From the IMG/VR virus record IMGVR_UViG_3300004369_000011, positions 1 to 64,000 of that record: a stretch of 64,000 nt of DNA; one strand, given 5' to 3'. Under the pieces are notes generated by a model. That model was not told the origin of the DNA. It made no database searches and saw nothing but the letters and a program-made list of their open reading frames with translations. The DNA is from a virus. The translations under genes and the position numbers were made by a program. Position 1 is the first letter of the stretch; every line of letters begins with the position of its first letter. Positions 44,009 through 63,438 of the stretch are shown in pieces.

Positions 44009-44538
44009 GGGCAGATACTTTTCGGACGTTGCCACCCTACTTCAAAATCAATTTCTGTCTTGATGTTTGCGTCGCCACCTTTTTGGAAAACAAACCACGC
44101 AGACGTCACAGAGTCCTTTAATTGCTTCCCATCCGCACGAAATGAGGGACGAGGACTCAAAATAATTAGGTTTGTTAAAGCACTCGTTTTTAAGAACGAT
44201 TCGCGTTTCCGCGTGGGCTCTAGGAATGTAAGGCGATCTAAAATGCAAACTCCCTTGCGGGCGACTGTAAGCCCATAGTCTGTAATCCAATTTGTATTTT
44301 CTTTTAATCCCTGCGTGATAGCCACCACCCAATCTACGTCGCTCATATACTGCAGCCACCATTCGGGGTCTTGTACGGCGGCTTCTATGGAGTTGTCGCG
44401 AATATCAGATAGCCCACAACGCTTTAATTCTTCTGCCAGTCCGCCCGTAAAATCCGTTGGAAGAAGGACCGAGCCCGTACATAATTGCCGCTGGGCAATA
44501 GGATTAAATATAAAGTTAGGGACTTGGTAGAAGGACAT
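44005..44538 (-). CDS. Methyltransferase-like protein without a catalytic motif
   Basis: 177 residues. The C-terminal part (LDRLTFLEPTRKRESFL, IILSPRPSFRADGK, TSAWFVFQKG) matches the second half of phage DNA methyltransferases that have (N/D)PPY as motif IV. Here the expected motif is replaced by DWVVAITQG, and the N-terminal AdoMet loop reads LPTDFTGGLAEE. It is likely inactive as a methylase but may still bind DNA or AdoMet. It abuts the plus-strand NblA-like gene, with starts two bases apart. Confidence 0.5.
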   Translation of the reverse strand: MSFYQVPNFIFNPIAQRQLCTGSVLLPTDFTGGLAEELKRCGLSDIRDNSIEAAVQDPEWWLQYMSDVDWVVAITQGLKENTNWITDYGLTVARKGVCILDRLTFLEPTRKRESFLKTSALTNLIILSPRPSFRADGKQLKDSVTSAWFVFQKGGDANIKTEIDFEVGWQRPKSICP

Positions 44539-44779
44539 GGACGGCGTTAAGAGTTTGGAGCGCTTACGGAGCTGGATGAGTCTAGAGCAAGAGTTTCTTC
44601 ATAAACAATTCCTAGCTCAAGCTAACAAGCTTGATCGAAAAGAACTCATAGAGATTTTAGAGATTGTTCATGCAAACTATCTTGTACGAGGTAGTTTATT
44701 TTTACGTCTTTCCAAATGGTGTCAACGCCAGGGTTACCCGTTGCCGGATGCGGATGAAATTACAAATCCAAACAAATAA
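44537..44779 (+). CDS. NblA-like protein, phycobilisome degradation adaptor candidate
   Basis: 80 residues with LMSLEQEF-type entry to a helix (MSLEQEFLHKQFLAQANKL), a short turn (DRKE) and a second helix (LIEILEIVHANYLVRGSLFL) ending RLSKWC. NblA proteins (about 60 aa) have the same layout: SLEQxFxxxxFxxQ, a Leu-rich helix with YxVR, then L.K. NblA brings phycobilisomes to a Clp protease, and an nblA gene is known in the Microcystis phage Ma-LMM01. Ten to twenty residues at each end extend the usual length. It is the only plus-strand gene in this part of the replication block and has an opposed terminator after it. The call is by pattern and needs a profile search. Confidence 0.55.
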   Translation: MDGVKSLERLRSWMSLEQEFLHKQFLAQANKLDRKELIEILEIVHANYLVRGSLFLRLSKWCQRQGYPLPDADEITNPNK

Positions 44780-44799
44780 AAAAGGCGCCGTAGCGCCTT
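44777..44799 (-). terminator. Minus-strand rho-independent terminator
   Basis: On the minus strand AAGGCGC-TACG-GCGCCTT (7-bp perfect stem) is followed by a run of T residues. It ends the transcript of the gene at 44825-45649 and separates it from the convergent NblA-like gene. Confidence 0.9.
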
Positions 44800-44824
44800 C
44801 GTGTCCTCTGCTTGTAAGTATAGG

Positions 44825-45649
44825 TTAAAAGTCCAAACCTGCAGCTTTCAGAGCTTCTTTCTGCTCGTCAGTCAGGTCTTTCTTTTCACCTTTCTTAGAT
44901 GAGGGCGGCTCAACTTCCTCAGCAGGCTTCCCAGCAATCGCGGCTGACGGCGGGAGAGAAGCAAAACCCCCTCCCTGAGTCTCCAGACGCTTCGGATAGG
45001 TTTCGGCAAAGTCCGCTTTAAGCTTCGCGTGGTCTTGCCCAAGAGGTAGCTCGACCAGATTGCTAGAGGGGATAGTGCTACGTAGAGCAGAAGATACCAA
45101 ATCTCCTCCATCGTTTTCCAACCAGGTAGCGATGTCTTGAATGAGCTTGGTTTCTTCTGAGCCATTTACAGGACGATCCTTAAATTCCAGGGCATTGAAA
45201 TTAATTTTCGCACCATCCGCTCCGGTAATGGGATCCCGTTCATTGAAGCTTTTCGTTACAAACTTCGTGCTTGTAATGATTTCTCCAACATTGATACGGT
45301 TGTTGTAAAGCGTTTGGAAGTACGAAATAAAATTCTTCTGACTTGATTTGCCAGAAATAATGCAGGTAGATACACAGCGAGGAGGCAGCAAACGGTGGCT
45401 AGGACTAACACCGATAAAAGCAACCCGAATAAACTCTTCATGGGAGCGCATTCCGAGGTTCCCGAAAAACGGGGTGAATCCCAACAGAACAAATTCGATT
45501 GGTATCCCGTTATCGTTCGCGTCCGTGATCGCCGAGTCTGGATCAGTGTCGGACTTCCACCGACGTGCCTGAAGATCAATTCGTAAGCAGTGTGGGGGGA
45601 CTTGACAAAGAATTTCATCAACCGAAAATTTACCAGCAATGAAAACCAT
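44825..45649 (-). CDS. Replication-region protein, possibly ssDNA-binding, 274 aa
   Basis: Not firmly recognised. A beta-rich first half (IEFVLLGFTPFFGNLGMRSH, FIRVAFIGVSPSHRL, CVSTCIISGKSS) is followed by a Lys/Glu-rich linker and a short end KEALKAAGLDF. The layout (beta domain, flexible linker, final acidic-aromatic residues) resembles ssDNA-binding proteins. It sits directly downstream of an SSB-like gene. The role in replication is inferred. Confidence 0.55.
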   Translation of the reverse strand: MVFIAGKFSVDEILCQVPPHCLRIDLQARRWKSDTDPDSAITDANDNGIPIEFVLLGFTPFFGNLGMRSHEEFIRVAFIGVSPSHRLLPPRCVSTCIISGKSSQKNFISYFQTLYNNRINVGEIITSTKFVTKSFNERDPITGADGAKINFNALEFKDRPVNGSEETKLIQDIATWLENDGGDLVSSALRSTIPSSNLVELPLGQDHAKLKADFAETYPKRLETQGGGFASLPPSAAIAGKPAEEVEPPSSKKGEKKDLTDEQKEALKAAGLDF

Positions 45650-46886: not shown

Positions 46887-46911
46887 AAAAAGGGCCCTGT
46901 CAGCGGGCCCT
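46887..46911 (-). terminator. Minus-strand terminator after the repeat protein
   Basis: On the minus strand AGGGCCC-GCTGACA-GGGCCCT forms a 7-bp stem followed by TTTTC. It lies about 18 bases after the stop of the gene ending at 46929. Confidence 0.88.
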
Positions 46912-48772: not shown

Positions 48773-50668
48773 TTATTTTTCCGCCCAAGTGTTTCCTATC
48801 GACGCGTCTGCTTTAGCGGGCACTGTTTTTAAAATTGTCTCAGCAGCTTCTTTCATACAGTCTTCTAAGATTTTTTTATAGTGGTTTTCTTTACCTACCT
48901 GTACTTCCAAAACAATTTCATCGTGCACACAAGCGATTAAATGCGCCTCGGCACCTAAATGTTCCCCTAGTTTTGCAATGGAGAGTTTTAAGATATCCGC
49001 CCCCGCTCCTTGAATTAAAGTATTAGCGCAAGCCATCATCTGAGCGTCATCATATGACAGGAGCCGGCGACGTCCCATAGGAGTGCGTACATAGCACCAA
49101 CCTTCTTCAACCATCGCCGCTCTTTCTCTGTGCCACTGACGCAAGCGTGGATACGCGCTGTGAAACGCTGTGTGTGCAATTTTTGCCTCAGAGAGCGTAA
49201 TAACCTTCCCGCTCTGAGCTGCGTAGGTTTTGTACTTACGAAATCCCATTCCGTACAGCAATGCAAAGTTAAGTGTTTTACCATCTTGTCTCTGAGAGTA
49301 AGTAACTTGATCGACTGGAACTTTGTAAATTAAGCTTGCCGTGACGTTATGTAGATCCTCTCCGTCTTGAAACGCTTTAATCATCTGAGGAATGCCTATT
49401 AGTTCAGCCCCAAGTCTCAGTTCTATTTGAGAAAAGTCACAAATTACAAATTTAAAACCCTGTGTGGGTATAAAGCACCCCCTAAATTCAGAGTTTCTAG
49501 GCACCTGCTGAATGTTCACCCCGAACACAGTTTTTTTTACTTTAGCTGTAGTTCTTTTCGCACCTGAAGACGTAAACCTTCCGCTATTCGCGCCGTATTG
49601 ATTGTAGCCACTATGTATCCTATGTGACACAGGGTTTATATTGTCTATGAGTTTATTAACGTGCTCTAGTTTAGTTTCTATCTTGACTCGCTTCCGATAC
49701 AAATTAAGAAGAAAATCCTCGCTATCAAATTCCGCCAACGCAACCTGATTCAATGTTGGCTTGCCTGTTACGTTGTCACGAGGTACAGCAATGCCCAGAA
49801 CAGCGAAGTAGTTAAGGCACTGCGCGTTTGAGCCGGGATTAAATTCTTTCTTAGGTTTTTTTCCGATGGCTATCGCACCCTCTGTTGTCTTTAACAATTT
49901 CATCTCAATAGGTAATAAGTTATCTAATGTTTCGCAAAATAATTTTGTAGTCGCGTTTAATTCAAGTTCAATAGTTTGTTTTAAATTTTTTAGCTTAGCT
50001 ATATCAACGCCAAATCCTCTGTGGCACATTAAAGCCACAGGGCGTATACACTGAGACTCTAAGGTGTATATCTCTAGTAGATTCTCTTCAGCTAACTCAG
50101 CTAACTGCGACGCCGCCACGCGGGGGAGAATGTCTACGTCTTTTGCGGCGTAAGCAATCTGTTCCTCCGTTAGCTTAGCCTGAGACCAGTCCGTCAGTCT
50201 TTGTTCTTTATCTATTTCTTCTTCAAGCCGCCGTTCTACAACAGCTTTTAAACTACAACTTACATCTGCAAAATAAGGCTTCTTTGCTTGAGGGGATATT
50301 CTTTTTTCCTTGAACCCGGCGCGTAAGCATTTTTCGGCCACGTAAGTGTCAAAAAGCTTGTTTTTAAAATCAATTCCAAGTTTAAGGTTGAACTGAAGAT
50401 CAAAGTTTAAATTATGCCCTACCAGCATTTCGCGAGTTTCAATATAGGTTTTTAACTCTTGTAGATCTGTTAATTTAAATAAATCAAAAACATAAACTAT
50501 CCGATCGGCTTGTTCTTCCTTTGTGTCACAGAGCTGAAGCAGACGCGGACGAGCAATGCGAGCGTCCAACCCCGTGGTCTCGTAGTCCAAACAAACTTTC
50601 TTACAGCTTTCTAAGTCTTGTAGCGCTTCCTGGGCTTGCTGTTGCGTTGTGATGTATTTAATTTGCAT
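48773..50668 (-). CDS. polA: Family A DNA polymerase with 3'-5' exonuclease
   Basis: 631 residues. Exonuclease motifs: LDYETTGLD (Asp28, Glu30), GHNLNFDLQ and YAAKDVDIL. Polymerase motif A CDFSQIELR near residue 410, motif B RQDGKTLNFALLYGMG near 459-475 and motif C CVHDEIVLE near 581. There is no 5'-nuclease domain, as in T7-like enzymes. The residue at the E. coli Phe762 position (motif B) is Phe. It replicates the phage genome together with the SF3 primase-helicase. A minus-strand terminator at 50686-50713 lies just upstream of its start. Confidence 0.95.
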   Translation of the reverse strand: MQIKYITTQQQAQEALQDLESCKKVCLDYETTGLDARIARPRLLQLCDTKEEQADRIVYVFDLFKLTDLQELKTYIETREMLVGHNLNFDLQFNLKLGIDFKNKLFDTYVAEKCLRAGFKEKRISPQAKKPYFADVSCSLKAVVERRLEEEIDKEQRLTDWSQAKLTEEQIAYAAKDVDILPRVAASQLAELAEENLLEIYTLESQCIRPVALMCHRGFGVDIAKLKNLKQTIELELNATTKLFCETLDNLLPIEMKLLKTTEGAIAIGKKPKKEFNPGSNAQCLNYFAVLGIAVPRDNVTGKPTLNQVALAEFDSEDFLLNLYRKRVKIETKLEHVNKLIDNINPVSHRIHSGYNQYGANSGRFTSSGAKRTTAKVKKTVFGVNIQQVPRNSEFRGCFIPTQGFKFVICDFSQIELRLGAELIGIPQMIKAFQDGEDLHNVTASLIYKVPVDQVTYSQRQDGKTLNFALLYGMGFRKYKTYAAQSGKVITLSEAKIAHTAFHSAYPRLRQWHRERAAMVEEGWCYVRTPMGRRRLLSYDDAQMMACANTLIQGAGADILKLSIAKLGEHLGAEAHLIACVHDEIVLEVQVGKENHYKKILEDCMKEAAETILKTVPAKADASIGNTWAEK

Positions 50669-50685: not shown

Positions 50686-50713
50686 CAAAAAAAGAGGCGT
50701 CCCGTAGGACGCC
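50686..50713 (-). terminator. Minus-strand terminator ahead of the polymerase gene
   Basis: On the minus strand GGCGTC-CTACGG-GACGCC is a perfect 6-bp stem followed by TCTTTTTTTG. It follows the stop of the gene ending at 50726, so the polymerase may need its own promoter, or read-through sets its level. Confidence 0.9.
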
Positions 50714-50725
50714 CCTAGTGTAACG

Positions 50726-51836: not shown

Positions 51837-53384
51837 CTACAACAATATTTTCTGAAAAACTGTAGAGGATTCGGGATCGTTTTGGGGGTCCACTACGTAC
51901 ACTTCATCGCTAAATTGTTGGAGTACATCAGCCTCCATTCCTATACAGAAAGCGTAAAAATTAATACTTTGCTCTTCTTTAAAGTTATTAAGACGTCGTA
52001 CAAAGGCATCAGGTACATTTGCTTGTCCGTCAGTAATTAATAGTATGTCTGCTTTTGGATCTATGTGAGCCTTTGTCATAGCATGCTCTAATACCGCAGT
52101 GAACGAAGTTCCTCCGGCAGTTCGCCACGTAAGAATAAAATCCAGTAGTTCTTTGTTATTTTTACGGTTGCTATCAAGCACCAAGCTGTTACAAATTCTG
52201 GCGTCAAATAAATGAATTTGAATTTCTCGCTTTTGCTTAAGACACTCGTCTGCGACAACAAAAGCTATTGCTTTCGACCATAATTCAGATTCTCCAGTCA
52301 TTGAGCCAGAAATGTCGATGTACATTACTACGGGTCCTCTATCAACGTCTTTAGATTTTGCTTCATAATCTTTAGTCAACAAAGTTTTTTGTGAATACTT
52401 AAGAGCAAACAGGGCACGTCCTTCCTGCGTGGCCGCCAACGCAATTTCAATAGGGAATGCTTTAGTTACTTCGTCAGAAAACTTAGCGCCAACTATATCG
52501 CTATAGTTCGTTTGAGTTTTTTTAGCTCGTCTTCTGTCATTCCAAGCTTTACGTAAGCCACCTAAACGAGAGGCTAGTTTCTGCAGTTTTTTATTATGAC
52601 TTAGTTTTTTAGCTAAAGCTTGTTTTTCTTGCAAATCTCCGCTGTGATGCCCCTGGCCTGTTTCTGTTCCAGCAAGAGCTGACATAGCATTTTCCAGTTC
52701 GTCAGCTTCTTTCTTAGCCCGCTCAACCGCCTCCGCTACCTTAGGTTGTAGTTTATTTCTGGCTTCGTTCAAGACTTGTTCCACGGCTTGACTCAATTGC
52801 TTTCCTTGCTGCCTTAGTTCGGTAGCCTCAAGGTCTTTTCCTTGTTTTTTAGCTTGAATGAAAGCGTCACGTAACTCGTTTAACTTCTCAGCACTATGCG
52901 CCAAAAGCTCTGCGGGCAGTTGACCCAATTCAATTTGCTCTTCTATAATTTCACTTAATTCGTTTAATAAACAAACGGCATTGTTGCCGCTATTAAATTG
53001 ATTGCCTATACAGTGGGTTGCAAGAGTCGGCCACGCGGGAGAATTACAGAGATCATTTAACAGGCCAATCCAAAAAGCAGATTCAGGTTTATATCCAGAA
53101 GGAAACGGGGGATCAAATCCTTCTTGTTTATTACGAAAATATTCTTCAGCCTCCGTCAAGGAGACTAGAGGAGTTACGTTGCCGCCCTGATAAAGACATT
53201 CAAAAATTTCTTTACCAAATCGAGATAGTTGTCGAATATCATATCGATCAATTAAGTAGTTGACCGTAGGTTTGGTGTCTCGTACAAAGTCTTCCCACAA
53301 ATAGTCTGCTAGCGCGGAGACCGCAACTACTATGGGCGCTGCATCAAGCAGGCGAATGTATTCGTGCAGGGTTTTGTTGTTCAT
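51837..53384 (-). CDS. VWA-domain protein, ViaA/CoxE-like
   Basis: 515 residues from the Met at 53384, five bases after the AAA gene (an upstream in-frame Met at 53408 overlaps it). The N-terminal ~340 residues are helical and charged. The C-terminal third is a von Willebrand A domain with the metal site DISGSM near residue 355, then TAGGTSF and LLITDGQANVPD. Such proteins pair with MoxR-type AAA ATPases (RavA with ViaA in E. coli) and help assemble or activate metal-containing complexes. Here the pair is joined by a DUF3150 gene. Confidence 0.88.
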   Translation of the reverse strand: MNNKTLHEYIRLLDAAPIVVAVSALADYLWEDFVRDTKPTVNYLIDRYDIRQLSRFGKEIFECLYQGGNVTPLVSLTEAEEYFRNKQEGFDPPFPSGYKPESAFWIGLLNDLCNSPAWPTLATHCIGNQFNSGNNAVCLLNELSEIIEEQIELGQLPAELLAHSAEKLNELRDAFIQAKKQGKDLEATELRQQGKQLSQAVEQVLNEARNKLQPKVAEAVERAKKEADELENAMSALAGTETGQGHHSGDLQEKQALAKKLSHNKKLQKLASRLGGLRKAWNDRRRAKKTQTNYSDIVGAKFSDEVTKAFPIEIALAATQEGRALFALKYSQKTLLTKDYEAKSKDVDRGPVVMYIDISGSMTGESELWSKAIAFVVADECLKQKREIQIHLFDARICNSLVLDSNRKNNKELLDFILTWRTAGGTSFTAVLEHAMTKAHIDPKADILLITDGQANVPDAFVRRLNNFKEEQSINFYAFCIGMEADVLQQFSDEVYVVDPQNDPESSTVFQKILL

Positions 53385-53388
53385 GGAT

Positions 53389-54573
53389 TTACTTAGTGAA
53401 CTCTCCAATGGTTTTAGCGATTCGTTGTGAATTGATATTTAACTCTTGGCACAATTTTGTAGCATCTTGTCGCGCTTTCAGAGTTACACGATAGTGTTCT
53501 CCCTCAAGAACTCCGTTTGCTTTTGCTTCTAGCACTTGTAAATCGTGATGAATCTTACGTAACTTACTAACCACGTGGTTTAAATCTTCTAGATTCTTGG
53601 CTTCTTTTGATTGAATCGCATGAAACTCACTGAGGACACCGGCTTGAGCCCGTTTAATGTCCTTTAACAACCTTTCAGCTGTAGGGATTACTTGATCCAA
53701 TACCTCCCGAATTACAGATACATCGTCAGGAGTCTGATAAACAATATGAATCAGGGAGTCGTGAAGATGTTCTGGATAAAGTTTATCGTCGCCCTGAACA
53801 AGAGCCCAGCCCCGCATGAACTTAAGAATCTGTACACGCCGTCGATCACTGATTGTTATGCCCCGCGTGACTAGCATCTCAAACACCTGAGCAAACGAGT
53901 CAAGAAACTCATCACTTGGAGCAATGAGAGCAGCCTCTTCTTGTAACTTGCCTAAATCGGCATAACTTAGATCTGATTCAACAGCAGGTCGCTGTTCGAT
54001 ACCCAGAGCCCATGTGTCTAGAAGTCTTTTTGAAATAGGAGCTTTGAGAAGATCTACTGTCGGTCTAAACAGAAAGCGATCGCAAAAAGCTTGGAGAGCT
54101 TCTTCTTGGGGAAAGCTGTTAGTCGCCGCAACGATAGATTGAATAGGTGTTGTCAACACCTCTTTGCCGTTATTAAACGTACGTTCGTTTAGGATCGTAA
54201 GCAGAGAATTTAGTACAGCGGAGGAGCCGCGAAAAAGCTCATCTAGGAAAGCTATGTTGGCAGTAGGAAGATAACCCTGTACATCCCGACTGTATTCGTC
54301 TTTAAGTAACTTACTTACAGCGACAGGACCGAACAACTCTGATGGATCTGTGGTGGGCGAAAGCAAATAACCGAAGAAGCTAGAACCTGTAAATCCGTTG
54401 GAAACGGCGCGAACTAATTCAGATTTACCTGTGCCGGGTAGACCAAACAAGAACGCATTTTGCTTGGTAATAACTGCAGCCAGTAAGCCGTCGATGACGG
54501 GTGCTCGCTCTAAGAAAGCATTGTTAAGTGAGCCTCTAAATTTTTGAAGAGAGGTAAAAAGTGTGTCGTTCAT
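53389..54573 (-). CDS. MoxR/RavA-type AAA+ ATPase
   Basis: 394 residues. Walker A GLPGTGKSE at 44-52, Walker B IAFLDELFRG with Asp111 and Glu112, then SSAVLNSLLTILNERTFNNG and sensor I IVAATNSFP. The FLDExF...LNxLLxxxNERxFxNG sequence is the MoxR-family signature, as in RavA. A C-terminal helical extension (residues 290-390) may contact the VWA partner. It acts as a hexameric motor, probably with the downstream VWA protein, to remodel a host or phage complex. Confidence 0.9.
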   Translation of the reverse strand: MNDTLFTSLQKFRGSLNNAFLERAPVIDGLLAAVITKQNAFLFGLPGTGKSELVRAVSNGFTGSSFFGYLLSPTTDPSELFGPVAVSKLLKDEYSRDVQGYLPTANIAFLDELFRGSSAVLNSLLTILNERTFNNGKEVLTTPIQSIVAATNSFPQEEALQAFCDRFLFRPTVDLLKAPISKRLLDTWALGIEQRPAVESDLSYADLGKLQEEAALIAPSDEFLDSFAQVFEMLVTRGITISDRRRVQILKFMRGWALVQGDDKLYPEHLHDSLIHIVYQTPDDVSVIREVLDQVIPTAERLLKDIKRAQAGVLSEFHAIQSKEAKNLEDLNHVVSKLRKIHHDLQVLEAKANGVLEGEHYRVTLKARQDATKLCQELNINSQRIAKTIGEFTK

Positions 54574-61617: not shown

Positions 61618-61932
61618 TTAGGAGTAGTAGCGGCCCATAATAACGTCGTTGTCTTCAGTGAACTTCATAAGAATCCCACTGAAGAATGAGTCGCCGTGGT
61701 AACCCTCCCAGCCTGGGAATGAATCACCCTCGTTGCGCATGAAGTCACCCAGGCAGTAGTAATAACCTTTATAGTTTACGAATTGGGTATCTTCAAACTC
61801 AGTTTCAGTTAGGTAGTCAAACTGTTTGCGGAGTTTGATAGTTTCAGCGTCGCCGATGTACAACTCAGCGCATAACCCTGAGAATGTTTCTCTAGGCTGA
61901 TTGTTTGTGATGATGGTTAGAGCAGCAGTCAT
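61618..61932 (-). CDS. Conserved-type cyanophage early protein, 104 aa
   Basis: FDYLTETEFEDTQFVNYKGY, YYCLGDFMRNEGD, then FPGWEGYHGDSFFSGILMKF and MGRYYS. The layout F-x-WxGYxxDSFFSGIxxxxxxDxxxxxGRYxS is widespread in cyanophages of several types, of unknown function. It is the first gene of the leftward early operon and has a long structured leader. Confidence 0.72.
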   Translation of the reverse strand: MTAALTIITNNQPRETFSGLCAELYIGDAETIKLRKQFDYLTETEFEDTQFVNYKGYYYCLGDFMRNEGDSFPGWEGYHGDSFFSGILMKFTEDNDVIMGRYYS

Positions 61933-61962
61933 GATGATTCACCTGTATGCAATGTGATGTAG

Positions 61963-61980
61963 TGAGGGAAGAATCCCTCA
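61963..61980 (-). promoter_or_regulatory. Leader hairpin ahead of the first early gene
   Basis: TGAGGGA-AGAA-TCCCTCA is a perfect 7-bp stem with a 4-nt loop, 31 bases upstream of the start at 61932. It is probably a leader RNA structure controlling translation or mRNA stability. Confidence 0.65.
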
Positions 61981-62013
61981 GTTTGATGTAGTATCAAAGA
62001 GAGAGAATCTGTT

Positions 62014-62041
62014 AGGTTGGTGATCATAAATGATCTAACCT
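62014..62041 (-). promoter_or_regulatory. Interrupted leader hairpin
   Basis: AGGTT pairs with AACCT and GATCA with TGATC across a TAAA loop, with a small internal loop (1 against 3 bases). It lies between the other leader hairpins of the leftward operon. Confidence 0.5.
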
Positions 62042-62135
62042 TAATCTAGATCAACTGTACATCTTGATGATGTAGAGGCTATCAGGAACCTACCCCAAGT
62101 TAGTTAGGGAAAGTCGGCCTAAACTTAAAGTAACG

Positions 62136-62205
62136 TACAAAGCGCACTAAATACATGCAAAGCATATACTTAATGCGCCAAGTGCGTCAGTTCTTTGTAT
62201 TTAGT
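62136..62205 (-). ncRNA. Structured leader RNA with 17-bp hairpin and alternative pairing
   Basis: Arms 62142-62158 and 62162-62178 pair around a 3-nt loop. On the minus strand all 17 pairs form, three as G-U. On the plus strand those three are A-C mismatches, so the RNA must be the minus-strand transcript. Bases 62196-62205 are an exact complement of 62146-62155 and can instead pair with one hairpin arm. TACAAA/TTTGTA (62136-62141 with 62194-62199) could close an outer stem. The layout resembles an attenuator or switch in the early leader. Confidence 0.6.
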
Positions 62206-62268
62206 TCCACGTTGGCGATGCGTGGTAGAAGTTAACGCCGTTAAAAGTGATGACAGGAAGTCTATGGG

Positions 62269-62313
62269 CTCTGTCCAGAGTACCTGCACTAGACACAGTG
62301 ACTCTGGACAGAG
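62269..62313. repeat. 13-bp perfect inverted repeat with inner stem
   Basis: CTCTGTCCAGAGT (62269-62281) and ACTCTGGACAGAG (62301-62313) are exact reverse complements around 19 bases. These contain a further CACT/AGTG stem. It could be a protein-binding site, cruciform or hairpin. Confidence 0.75.
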
Positions 62314-62425
62314 GAAAGGAATCGATACGGCGCACACTTAACGAGTCGGGTTGCAACTCTATTGTGCTCGGGGGATCACTCGCGCCCCTAGTTCCATTTT
62401 CTGGCCATATCTGTTATGCAGAATA

Positions 62426-62476
62426 AGTTAACTGTGCCTTAGGCTTTCCGTACAAACTATCTCAGTACAGTTAACT
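62426..62476. repeat. 10-bp perfect inverted repeat
   Basis: AGTTAACTGT (62426-62435) and ACAGTTAACT (62467-62476), each containing the palindrome GTTAAC. A third GTTAAC lies at 62231-62236. A dimeric DNA-binding protein site is plausible. Confidence 0.65.
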
Positions 62477-62632
62477 ATTCAGTTTTCAAGGTGCGATCGG
62501 TTGCCCGATGCCTCAGATCCTACAGCATGAAGCGCAGCTTGTCGGGATGGTTGTTTCTGAATCGAAACATTGCGTAACGTTGGCGGGATCCTGACCATTG
62601 GTCTAGGGATCACAGGCCTTGCCACGCGTCAC

Positions 62633-62681
62633 CCGATTGGCTGGGCTGGGCTGATCGGATTGTCGAGGTGCTGCCAATCGG
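62633..62681. repeat. 9-bp perfect inverted repeat
   Basis: CCGATTGGC (62633-62641) and GCCAATCGG (62673-62681), 31 bases apart, with CTGGGCTGGGCTGATCGG between them. Confidence 0.6.
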
Positions 62682-62791
62682 TCTCCCGTTCGGCTTGAGC
62701 ACAGTATGGGCACACCAGGGGCCCTAGGTCAAGCCCTGAAACATTAAGAAAGTCTGAAGCCTAGGTGCGCTGGGTGAGGGGAGAGGAACCG

Positions 62792-62805
62792 CACGCGCTC
62801 GCGTG
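62792..62805. repeat. CACGCG-CT-CGCGTG hairpin next to an AT tract
   Basis: A perfect 6-bp stem with a 2-base loop is directly followed by TATATATACATACTAAAATTG. A GC-rich hairpin beside an easily melted AT tract is typical of origin or promoter architecture. Confidence 0.55.
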
Positions 62806-62891
62806 TATATATACATACTAAAATTGAAACCTGCCTGCCAGGTCTGACCGACTCAGCACCAGGAGAGGGGATGATAGGAAGCCTCCCCCGC

Positions 62892-62924
62892 CTATGTATA
62901 ACTAACCCTGCTCGCTATGTATAA
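62892..62924 (+). promoter_or_regulatory. Direct repeat CTATGTATAA, possible tandem -10 boxes
   Basis: CTATGTATAA occurs at 62892-62901 and again at 62915-62924, 23 bases apart. Each has a TATAA core on the plus strand. They may be tandem rightward promoters or binding sites; no clear -35 is seen. Confidence 0.4.
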
Positions 62925-63003
62925 AGAACTGGACGCAATCTGCCCGCAATGTGCCCTTTTTTTTAATATACAGCCTTGTTTGACGACGGGGCCGAGAACC
63001 CCC

Positions 63004-63062
63004 TGAGTATCAGGCAGGTAAATTGGGTATAAAAGGTCCCCCCGTCAATAAATTGATACTCA
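63004..63062. repeat. 9-bp perfect inverted repeat flanking GGGTATAAAAGG
   Basis: TGAGTATCA (63004-63012) and TGATACTCA (63054-63062) flank a TATAAAA box. The arrangement suggests an operator around a promoter for the rightward genes. Confidence 0.55.
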
Positions 63063-63225
63063 AAACCGGTAAGGCTTGTTAAAAAAAATTTTGGCCGCCC
63101 GTTTTTTAAGGTAAAAAGCTGTTCAGGTCGATAATTTTGTTTAATTTGAGATAAGGGTGGGGTAATGCAGGGTACTGGCCCCTATACTCTGACGTGTAGA
63201 CTCTTTTTGAGCTTAGAGAGGTTCC

Positions 63226-63438
63226 ATGACTGACCATGCACTTGTTGATAAGTTAAAAACTGCGGGGGTGTGTTGTGCTGAGTGCGGGGACAGGTACGGA
63301 ACCCCCCGTGGAAAGTATTCGTCTTGGTGGATGGGTGTTTGCAATGTGTGCGATGCAGAGGCACCCGTCACCGAGGTACGTAATTTTCGCTATTTGCATC
63401 GTGGGCTTGTTGAACTTGTTGAAAATGCCAAGATCTAG
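63226..63438 (+). CDS. Small zinc-ribbon protein, 70 aa
   Basis: CCAECGDRYG and GVCNVCDAEA give a CxxC...CxxC zinc ribbon around residues 17-42, followed by a helical end. Similar single-ribbon proteins occur early in phage genomes and may act in transcription or packaging. It is the first rightward gene after the control region. Confidence 0.72.
   Translation: MTDHALVDKLKTAGVCCAECGDRYGTPRGKYSSWWMGVCNVCDAEAPVTEVRNFRYLHRGLVELVENAKI

Follow-up and report, generated by a model that had tools for sequence, protein, structure and literature searches.

The analysed window covers bases 1-64000 of a linear virus record of 72,080 bp. Its left part contains a ~22-kb gene run, mostly on the minus strand, which includes genes for a D5-type primase, PolA, MoxR, and VWA proteins, and the structural genes are on the plus strand. 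A stretch of 1.3 kb (61933-63225), with the leftward replication module on one side and the rightward structural module on the other, was initially annotated as gene-free, and the question arises which function such a region serves. The absence of genes was borne out: no family-supported open reading frame exists between the first leftward gene (61618-61932, minus strand, 104 aa, phrog_1845, function unknown) and a plus-strand open reading frame at 63226-63438, and the longest frames inside the region are not conserved, because they differ between relatives. We consider it rather probable that the region is the early-control region of an S-EIV1-like cyanophage, with an antitermination leader that carries a boxA of the nut/rrn type.

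The portal-like protein is 48% identical to its counterpart in the Synechococcus phage S-EIV1 (KJ410740), an isolate that infects Synechococcus, and no other phage record matches. Because of this match, the window phage very probably infects cyanobacteria. A comparison of the DNA of the window with known phages, near and distant, revealed no similarity, and no relatives were obtained when the first gene, the second gene, or the rightward 1030-aa protein served as the query. The MoxR gene, in contrast to these queries, yielded 21 loci, six of which (L005, L007, L008, L012, L014, and L022) have a homologous, alignable intergenic region. This gene is kept in relatives and forms a pair with the gene of a VWA-domain protein (51837-54573, minus strand; the MoxR protein is an ATPase). 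Patterns derived from the conserved core described below led to 17 and 79 loci; each was inspected, pattern matches without the remainder of the core were thrown out, and 32 non-redundant cores were kept. With the exception of S-EIV1 the relatives are metagenomic contigs, with near-duplicates among them. The alignments were made with MAFFT and are not structure-fitted, and chance expectations were derived from shuffles.

Alignment of 30 loci and a profile search delimit a conserved core of ~120 bp (62939-63059), which comprises CGCAAT boxes, a T8/AT tract, a GC block, GAGAA, GGTAAA, and a palindromic -10-like site. Boxes of the form CGC(A/T)ATGT(A/G)TAA or CGCAAT are found on the plus strand at 62890-62950 (starts at 62890, 62913, 62934, and 62945) and include the repeated CTATGTATAA box that had been noticed before, with copies at 62892 and 62915. 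Family-wide, the longer form has 31 sense copies versus 4.4 in shuffles, and also 19 antisense copies. An invariant T8 tract (62957-62964, plus strand, from the alignment) is followed by an AT run, and the GC-rich block indeed adjoins this tract (62957-62999); the initial annotation had described a GC hairpin beside an AT tract. GGTAAA and the -10-like site CGTCAATAAATTGATA (63017-63058, plus strand) correspond to the family pattern TGTCA-n-TATA-n-TGACA; in the aligned cores the -10-like TATA is often flanked by TGTCA and TGACA, and this segment is a putative rightward promoter/operator. No good leftward sigma-70 promoter was predicted in the core. The rightward half of the core was also considered as a repeated phage promoter, and this candidate was rejected, as it matches a single place in the window and, weakly, the S-EIV1 core. 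In several relatives (L059, L048, and L072) the rightward -10-like site is followed on its right by an A-run and then a GC hairpin (e.g., AAAAAAAAATCGCCCGCGTGGGGCGA).

The gene order of leader, core, and rightward genes holds family-wide. To the left of the core the relatives contain small minus-strand genes, usually beyond a gene-free stretch, which extends over roughly 0.6-1.5 kb from the core to the first minus-strand gene in most of them. To the right there are rightward genes, often one of 2-3 kb, and sometimes a small minus-strand frame comes first. The intergenic region of S-EIV1 (44032-45020) has the same core, with leftward early genes and rightward genes on its sides. A sequence-only profile detected one full copy of the core per record in 18 of 18 records, including S-EIV1 (44429-44541, E 6e-12), and an extra partial match in one of the 18. 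We read the core as a divergent control site.

The core could also, or instead, be a replication origin, at which an initiator would bind the CGCAAT/CGCTATGTATAA boxes and melt the T8/AT tract. One full copy per genome, the invariant tract adjoining the boxes, and the neighboring replication-side operon would agree with such a function; divergent transcription would help it, and it would be compatible with an antitermination leader. However, the cumulative GC skew, which was run as a check, does not turn at the core in the window or in S-EIV1, the helical phasing, which should be regular for the boxes of an iteron-type origin, is weak and not convincing, no initiator gene was recognised, and an origin would not account for the RNA structure that extends over 0.9 kb. 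An origin at this site is doubtful.

The initial annotation described a high density of inverted repeats, and its perfect repeats of 13, 10, and 9 bp were found again. With loops of at most 60 nt the region contains perfect repeats of 13 bp (62269-62281/62301-62313), 10 bp (62426-62435/62467-62476 and 62146-62155/62196-62205), 9 bp (63004-63012/63054-63062 and 62633-62641/62673-62681), and 8 bp (63079-63086/63102-63109). Their density is unusually high. The region has 11 stems of at least 7 bp, compared to a mean of 5.0 in 49 other 1293-bp windows, none of which is as high, and of 3.2 in shuffles of the region; for stems of at least 9 bp the values are five versus 0.6, with one window as high, and 0.1. 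For every minimum stem length from 7 to 10 bp, with loops of at most 60 nt, no more than one of the 49 windows reaches the count of the region. The alignment revealed that pairing is kept by paired changes, the arms covarying across about 30 relatives. An Rfam scan of the window gave no family at the gathering score and a single chance match in the region (E 3.1), and a tRNA scan gave nothing. The stems had been recognized correctly, but the annotation had missed that those conserved among the relatives mainly form in the RNA of the minus, early-gene strand, and it had also missed a boxA, a bistable element, and a terminator in front of polA.

The ~0.9 kb between the core and the first leftward gene would be transcribed as the 5' leader of the early operon that runs leftward (61933-62966, minus strand). 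With the leaders read 5' to 3' along the minus strand, shared sequence in the same orientation was found for 304 pairs, compared to 35 pairs in the opposite orientation. Conservation occurs in blocks with variable stretches between them, one block shared with relatives being module M1 (62647-62736). Module M2 (62332-62492, minus strand) comprises a boxA, a stem (62467-62476/62426-62435) that covaries among relatives, an inner hairpin, and a 3' domain, and it is 86% identical over 162 nt to its counterpart in L080. Its third helix has to be discounted, because the 3' halves of L034, L036, L038, and L040 may be non-homologous there. Module M3 (62267-62313, minus strand), which has a 13-bp outer stem, an inner stem, and a conserved loop, is present in 22 leaders; the hairpin is strong (energy z -4.3), and its inner pairs are too invariant for a covariation analysis. 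A coding test of the conserved M2 block revealed no shared frame, and no frame runs through the leader blocks. S-EIV1 and its closest kin contain the core but neither boxA nor the bistable hairpin described below, and in S-EIV1 M2 and M3 were also not detected. Before early genes of S-EIV1 the motif CCCGCTTTGACGGATCAG is repeated (L041:43460-43790), which is possibly a leader element of its own.

In 28 leaders the boxA motif GAACCTWGACAA, when up to one mismatch is allowed, has 34 matches in sense and none in antisense orientation, compared to a mean of 0.14 in shuffles, and two copies ~150-170 nt apart are common among the members. The first copy of the window (62660-62671, minus strand, GCACCTCGACAA) lies within the inverted repeat 62633/62681. 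The second copy with its flank (62475-62494, minus strand, GCACCTTGAAAACTGAATAG) agrees in 18 of 20 positions with the rRNA sequence GAACCTTGAAAACTGCATAG of cyanobacteria; elsewhere in the 64 kb the best agreement is 14 positions, and none of 300 shuffled leaders has more than 14. The boxA of the cyanobacterial 16S-23S spacer is GAACCTTGAAAA (PMC8461337). Its 20-base version recurs across cyanobacterial genomes, with a few records from other phyla, and in two loci tested it is located on the sense strand between a tRNA and the 23S rRNA. Counted within the window only, boxA-like sites are no more frequent than expected (17 versus 11.6 with two mismatches), and therefore the claim rests on the relatives and on the position. 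A boxA of the host type is present on the transcribed strand of the leaders, as is characteristic of nut and rrn sites, and the copies are situated between the core, with its presumed upstream promoter, and the early genes, a position that would suit an antitermination site.

Directly upstream of the first start codon is module M4 (61926-62036, minus strand), which consists of a GATCAT-ATGATC hairpin and a bistable hairpin of three strands (strand 1, 61998-62009; strand 2, 61971-61980; strand 3, 61963-61970). In 29 loci 97.8% of the cells of the alignment can pair, compared to 77.4% after shuffling and at most 51% when the strands are slid, and 93 cells have double changes versus 27.7 in the control. 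Nine of 16 pairs contain double changes, and inner pairs show up to six pair types. Read as minus-strand RNA, helix 2 has 44 G-U cells versus three A-C cells, and therefore it is the RNA of the minus, early strand that folds. The middle strand (GAGGGAUUC in the window) pairs with either the upstream or the downstream strand, and the two pairings are mutually exclusive. Where it varies, for example to GAGAACC (L034), GAUGGA (L067), or GAGGGGC (L032), the partners change along with it. For both stems, 1:2 and 2:3, the own partners were better than partners swapped between genomes (0 of 500 swaps each), and in the predicted folds of the window one stem is present in the minimum-energy structure, whereas the alternative one is present in the centroid. 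Both mutually exclusive stems are maintained. M4 is not a plain terminator, because no U-run follows the hairpin. Further M4-like bistable hairpins, several of them with quite different stem sequences, are found upstream of later early genes (L032:6424-10548, minus strand; L048:1112-1279; L043:4389-4595; L080:6238-6380; L108:9153-9304), and this recurrence points to a role in the expression of the next gene.

The leader, which is conserved, folded, and non-coding over ~0.9 kb and carries a host-like boxA, might also be a free-standing large non-coding RNA that acts in trans, for example as a NusB/S10 sponge that lowers host rRNA synthesis. We regard this as unlikely, because no strong minus-strand terminator was found between the leader and the first gene, M4 directly precedes the first start codon and in some relatives is found again in front of further early genes, and conservation is a mosaic of blocks. 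Less likely still is a divergent promoter/operator alone, with the inverted repeats as protein-binding DNA palindromes; the -10-like and palindromic sites of the core would suit this explanation, but the G-U pairs of the minus strand are A-C mismatches on the other strand, the loops between the arms are long, and boxA is strand-specific. From the earlier proposal of a combined early-promoter region and origin or packaging site, early control is retained, with conservation at the point of divergence, while a packaging site (pac/cos) is extremely improbable in spite of the single copy per genome, because the conserved length is mostly RNA structure and the core of S-EIV1 (44.4 kb) is about 9.6 kb away from the large terminase gene (54.1 kb).

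The window contains an intrinsic terminator (50693-50716, minus strand, AGGGGCGTCCTACGGGACGCCTCT-TTTTTTG) 26 nt before polA, the gene of a family A DNA polymerase (48773-50668, minus strand). Besides the window, 10 of 18 loci aligned at polA, some of which are near-duplicates, have a strong hairpin with U-tract 13-49 nt before this gene, and the terminators of the relatives often differ in sequence. Five loci without a strong U-tract were inspected; four of them still have a GC hairpin at this position, and L019 has none. Intrinsic terminators are present downstream within the operon, as is typical of antitermination sites. A terminator so close to polA means that transcription into polA must mostly pass through it, and this read-through would be the purpose of the antitermination leader. 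Cyanobacteria are generally thought to lack Rho, and in hosts without Rho the targets of antitermination would need to be intrinsic terminators. Promoter-like sites also exist inside the early operon, in lower number than in shuffles. Two more terminator-like hairpins were observed in gaps of the leftward operon (46891-46911 and 44781-44800, minus strand).

We propose that the single-copy core fires transcription in both directions, and that the leftward transcript would begin with the structured leader of ~0.9 kb. The two stem-adjacent boxA copies would load the host NusB/S10 machinery onto the host RNA polymerase, with or without the help of a phage protein; a scan of early genes revealed none that encodes an N-like or Nus-like protein. 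The polymerase could then pass the intrinsic terminators of the ~22-kb early operon, in particular the one directly before polA. The hairpin between the leader and the first gene might switch between its two exclusive stems and thereby tune expression or processing of the first gene. That the leader has borrowed the rRNA boxA of the host against intrinsic terminators and that M4 is, in addition, a new class of bistable hairpin acting as an RNA switch is a joint claim that we make only tentatively.

Several known systems resemble this arrangement. The lambdoid nut sites (boxA, boxB, and N protein) share the boxA next to a stem, the position in an early-operon leader, and the intrinsic terminators downstream. 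In contrast to these sites, the leader has a boxA of the cyanobacterial rRNA type, often in two copies ~150-170 nt apart, the stem after boxA is larger than the small boxB, and the ~0.9-kb leader has extra modules. We do not assign the leader to the lambdoid nut class, because the scan of early genes gave no N-like protein and the leader modules are absent from S-EIV1. The boxA of bacterial rrn operons, represented by the cyanobacterial 16S-23S spacer, shares 18 of 20 bases with the window and has the same sense relative to transcription, whereas the phage copies are in an early leader outside an rRNA operon, alongside phage-specific stems. The put sites of HK022 are similar in that a folded phage leader RNA is the candidate antiterminator without an obvious protein partner; put, however, is not known to rely on boxA and is much shorter.

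No cyanophage antitermination leader of this type was found in the literature searched. If the proposal is true, the combination of polA terminator and boxA leader offers a testable rule for the timing of replication genes in S-EIV1-like phages, and a handle on the role of boxA in cyanobacteria. It would also add RNA modules that are not in Rfam, including one in which two mutually exclusive stems are both maintained. Other phages may commonly have boxA-like leaders. The 20-mer GAACCTTGAMAANTGMATAG was observed in 41 stretches of viral contigs without a detected core (L233-L273), where hairpins often follow it; in one of them (L245) a second boxA copy lies at a distance of 159 nt from the first, and in another (L247) a tRNA-like sequence comes after boxA.
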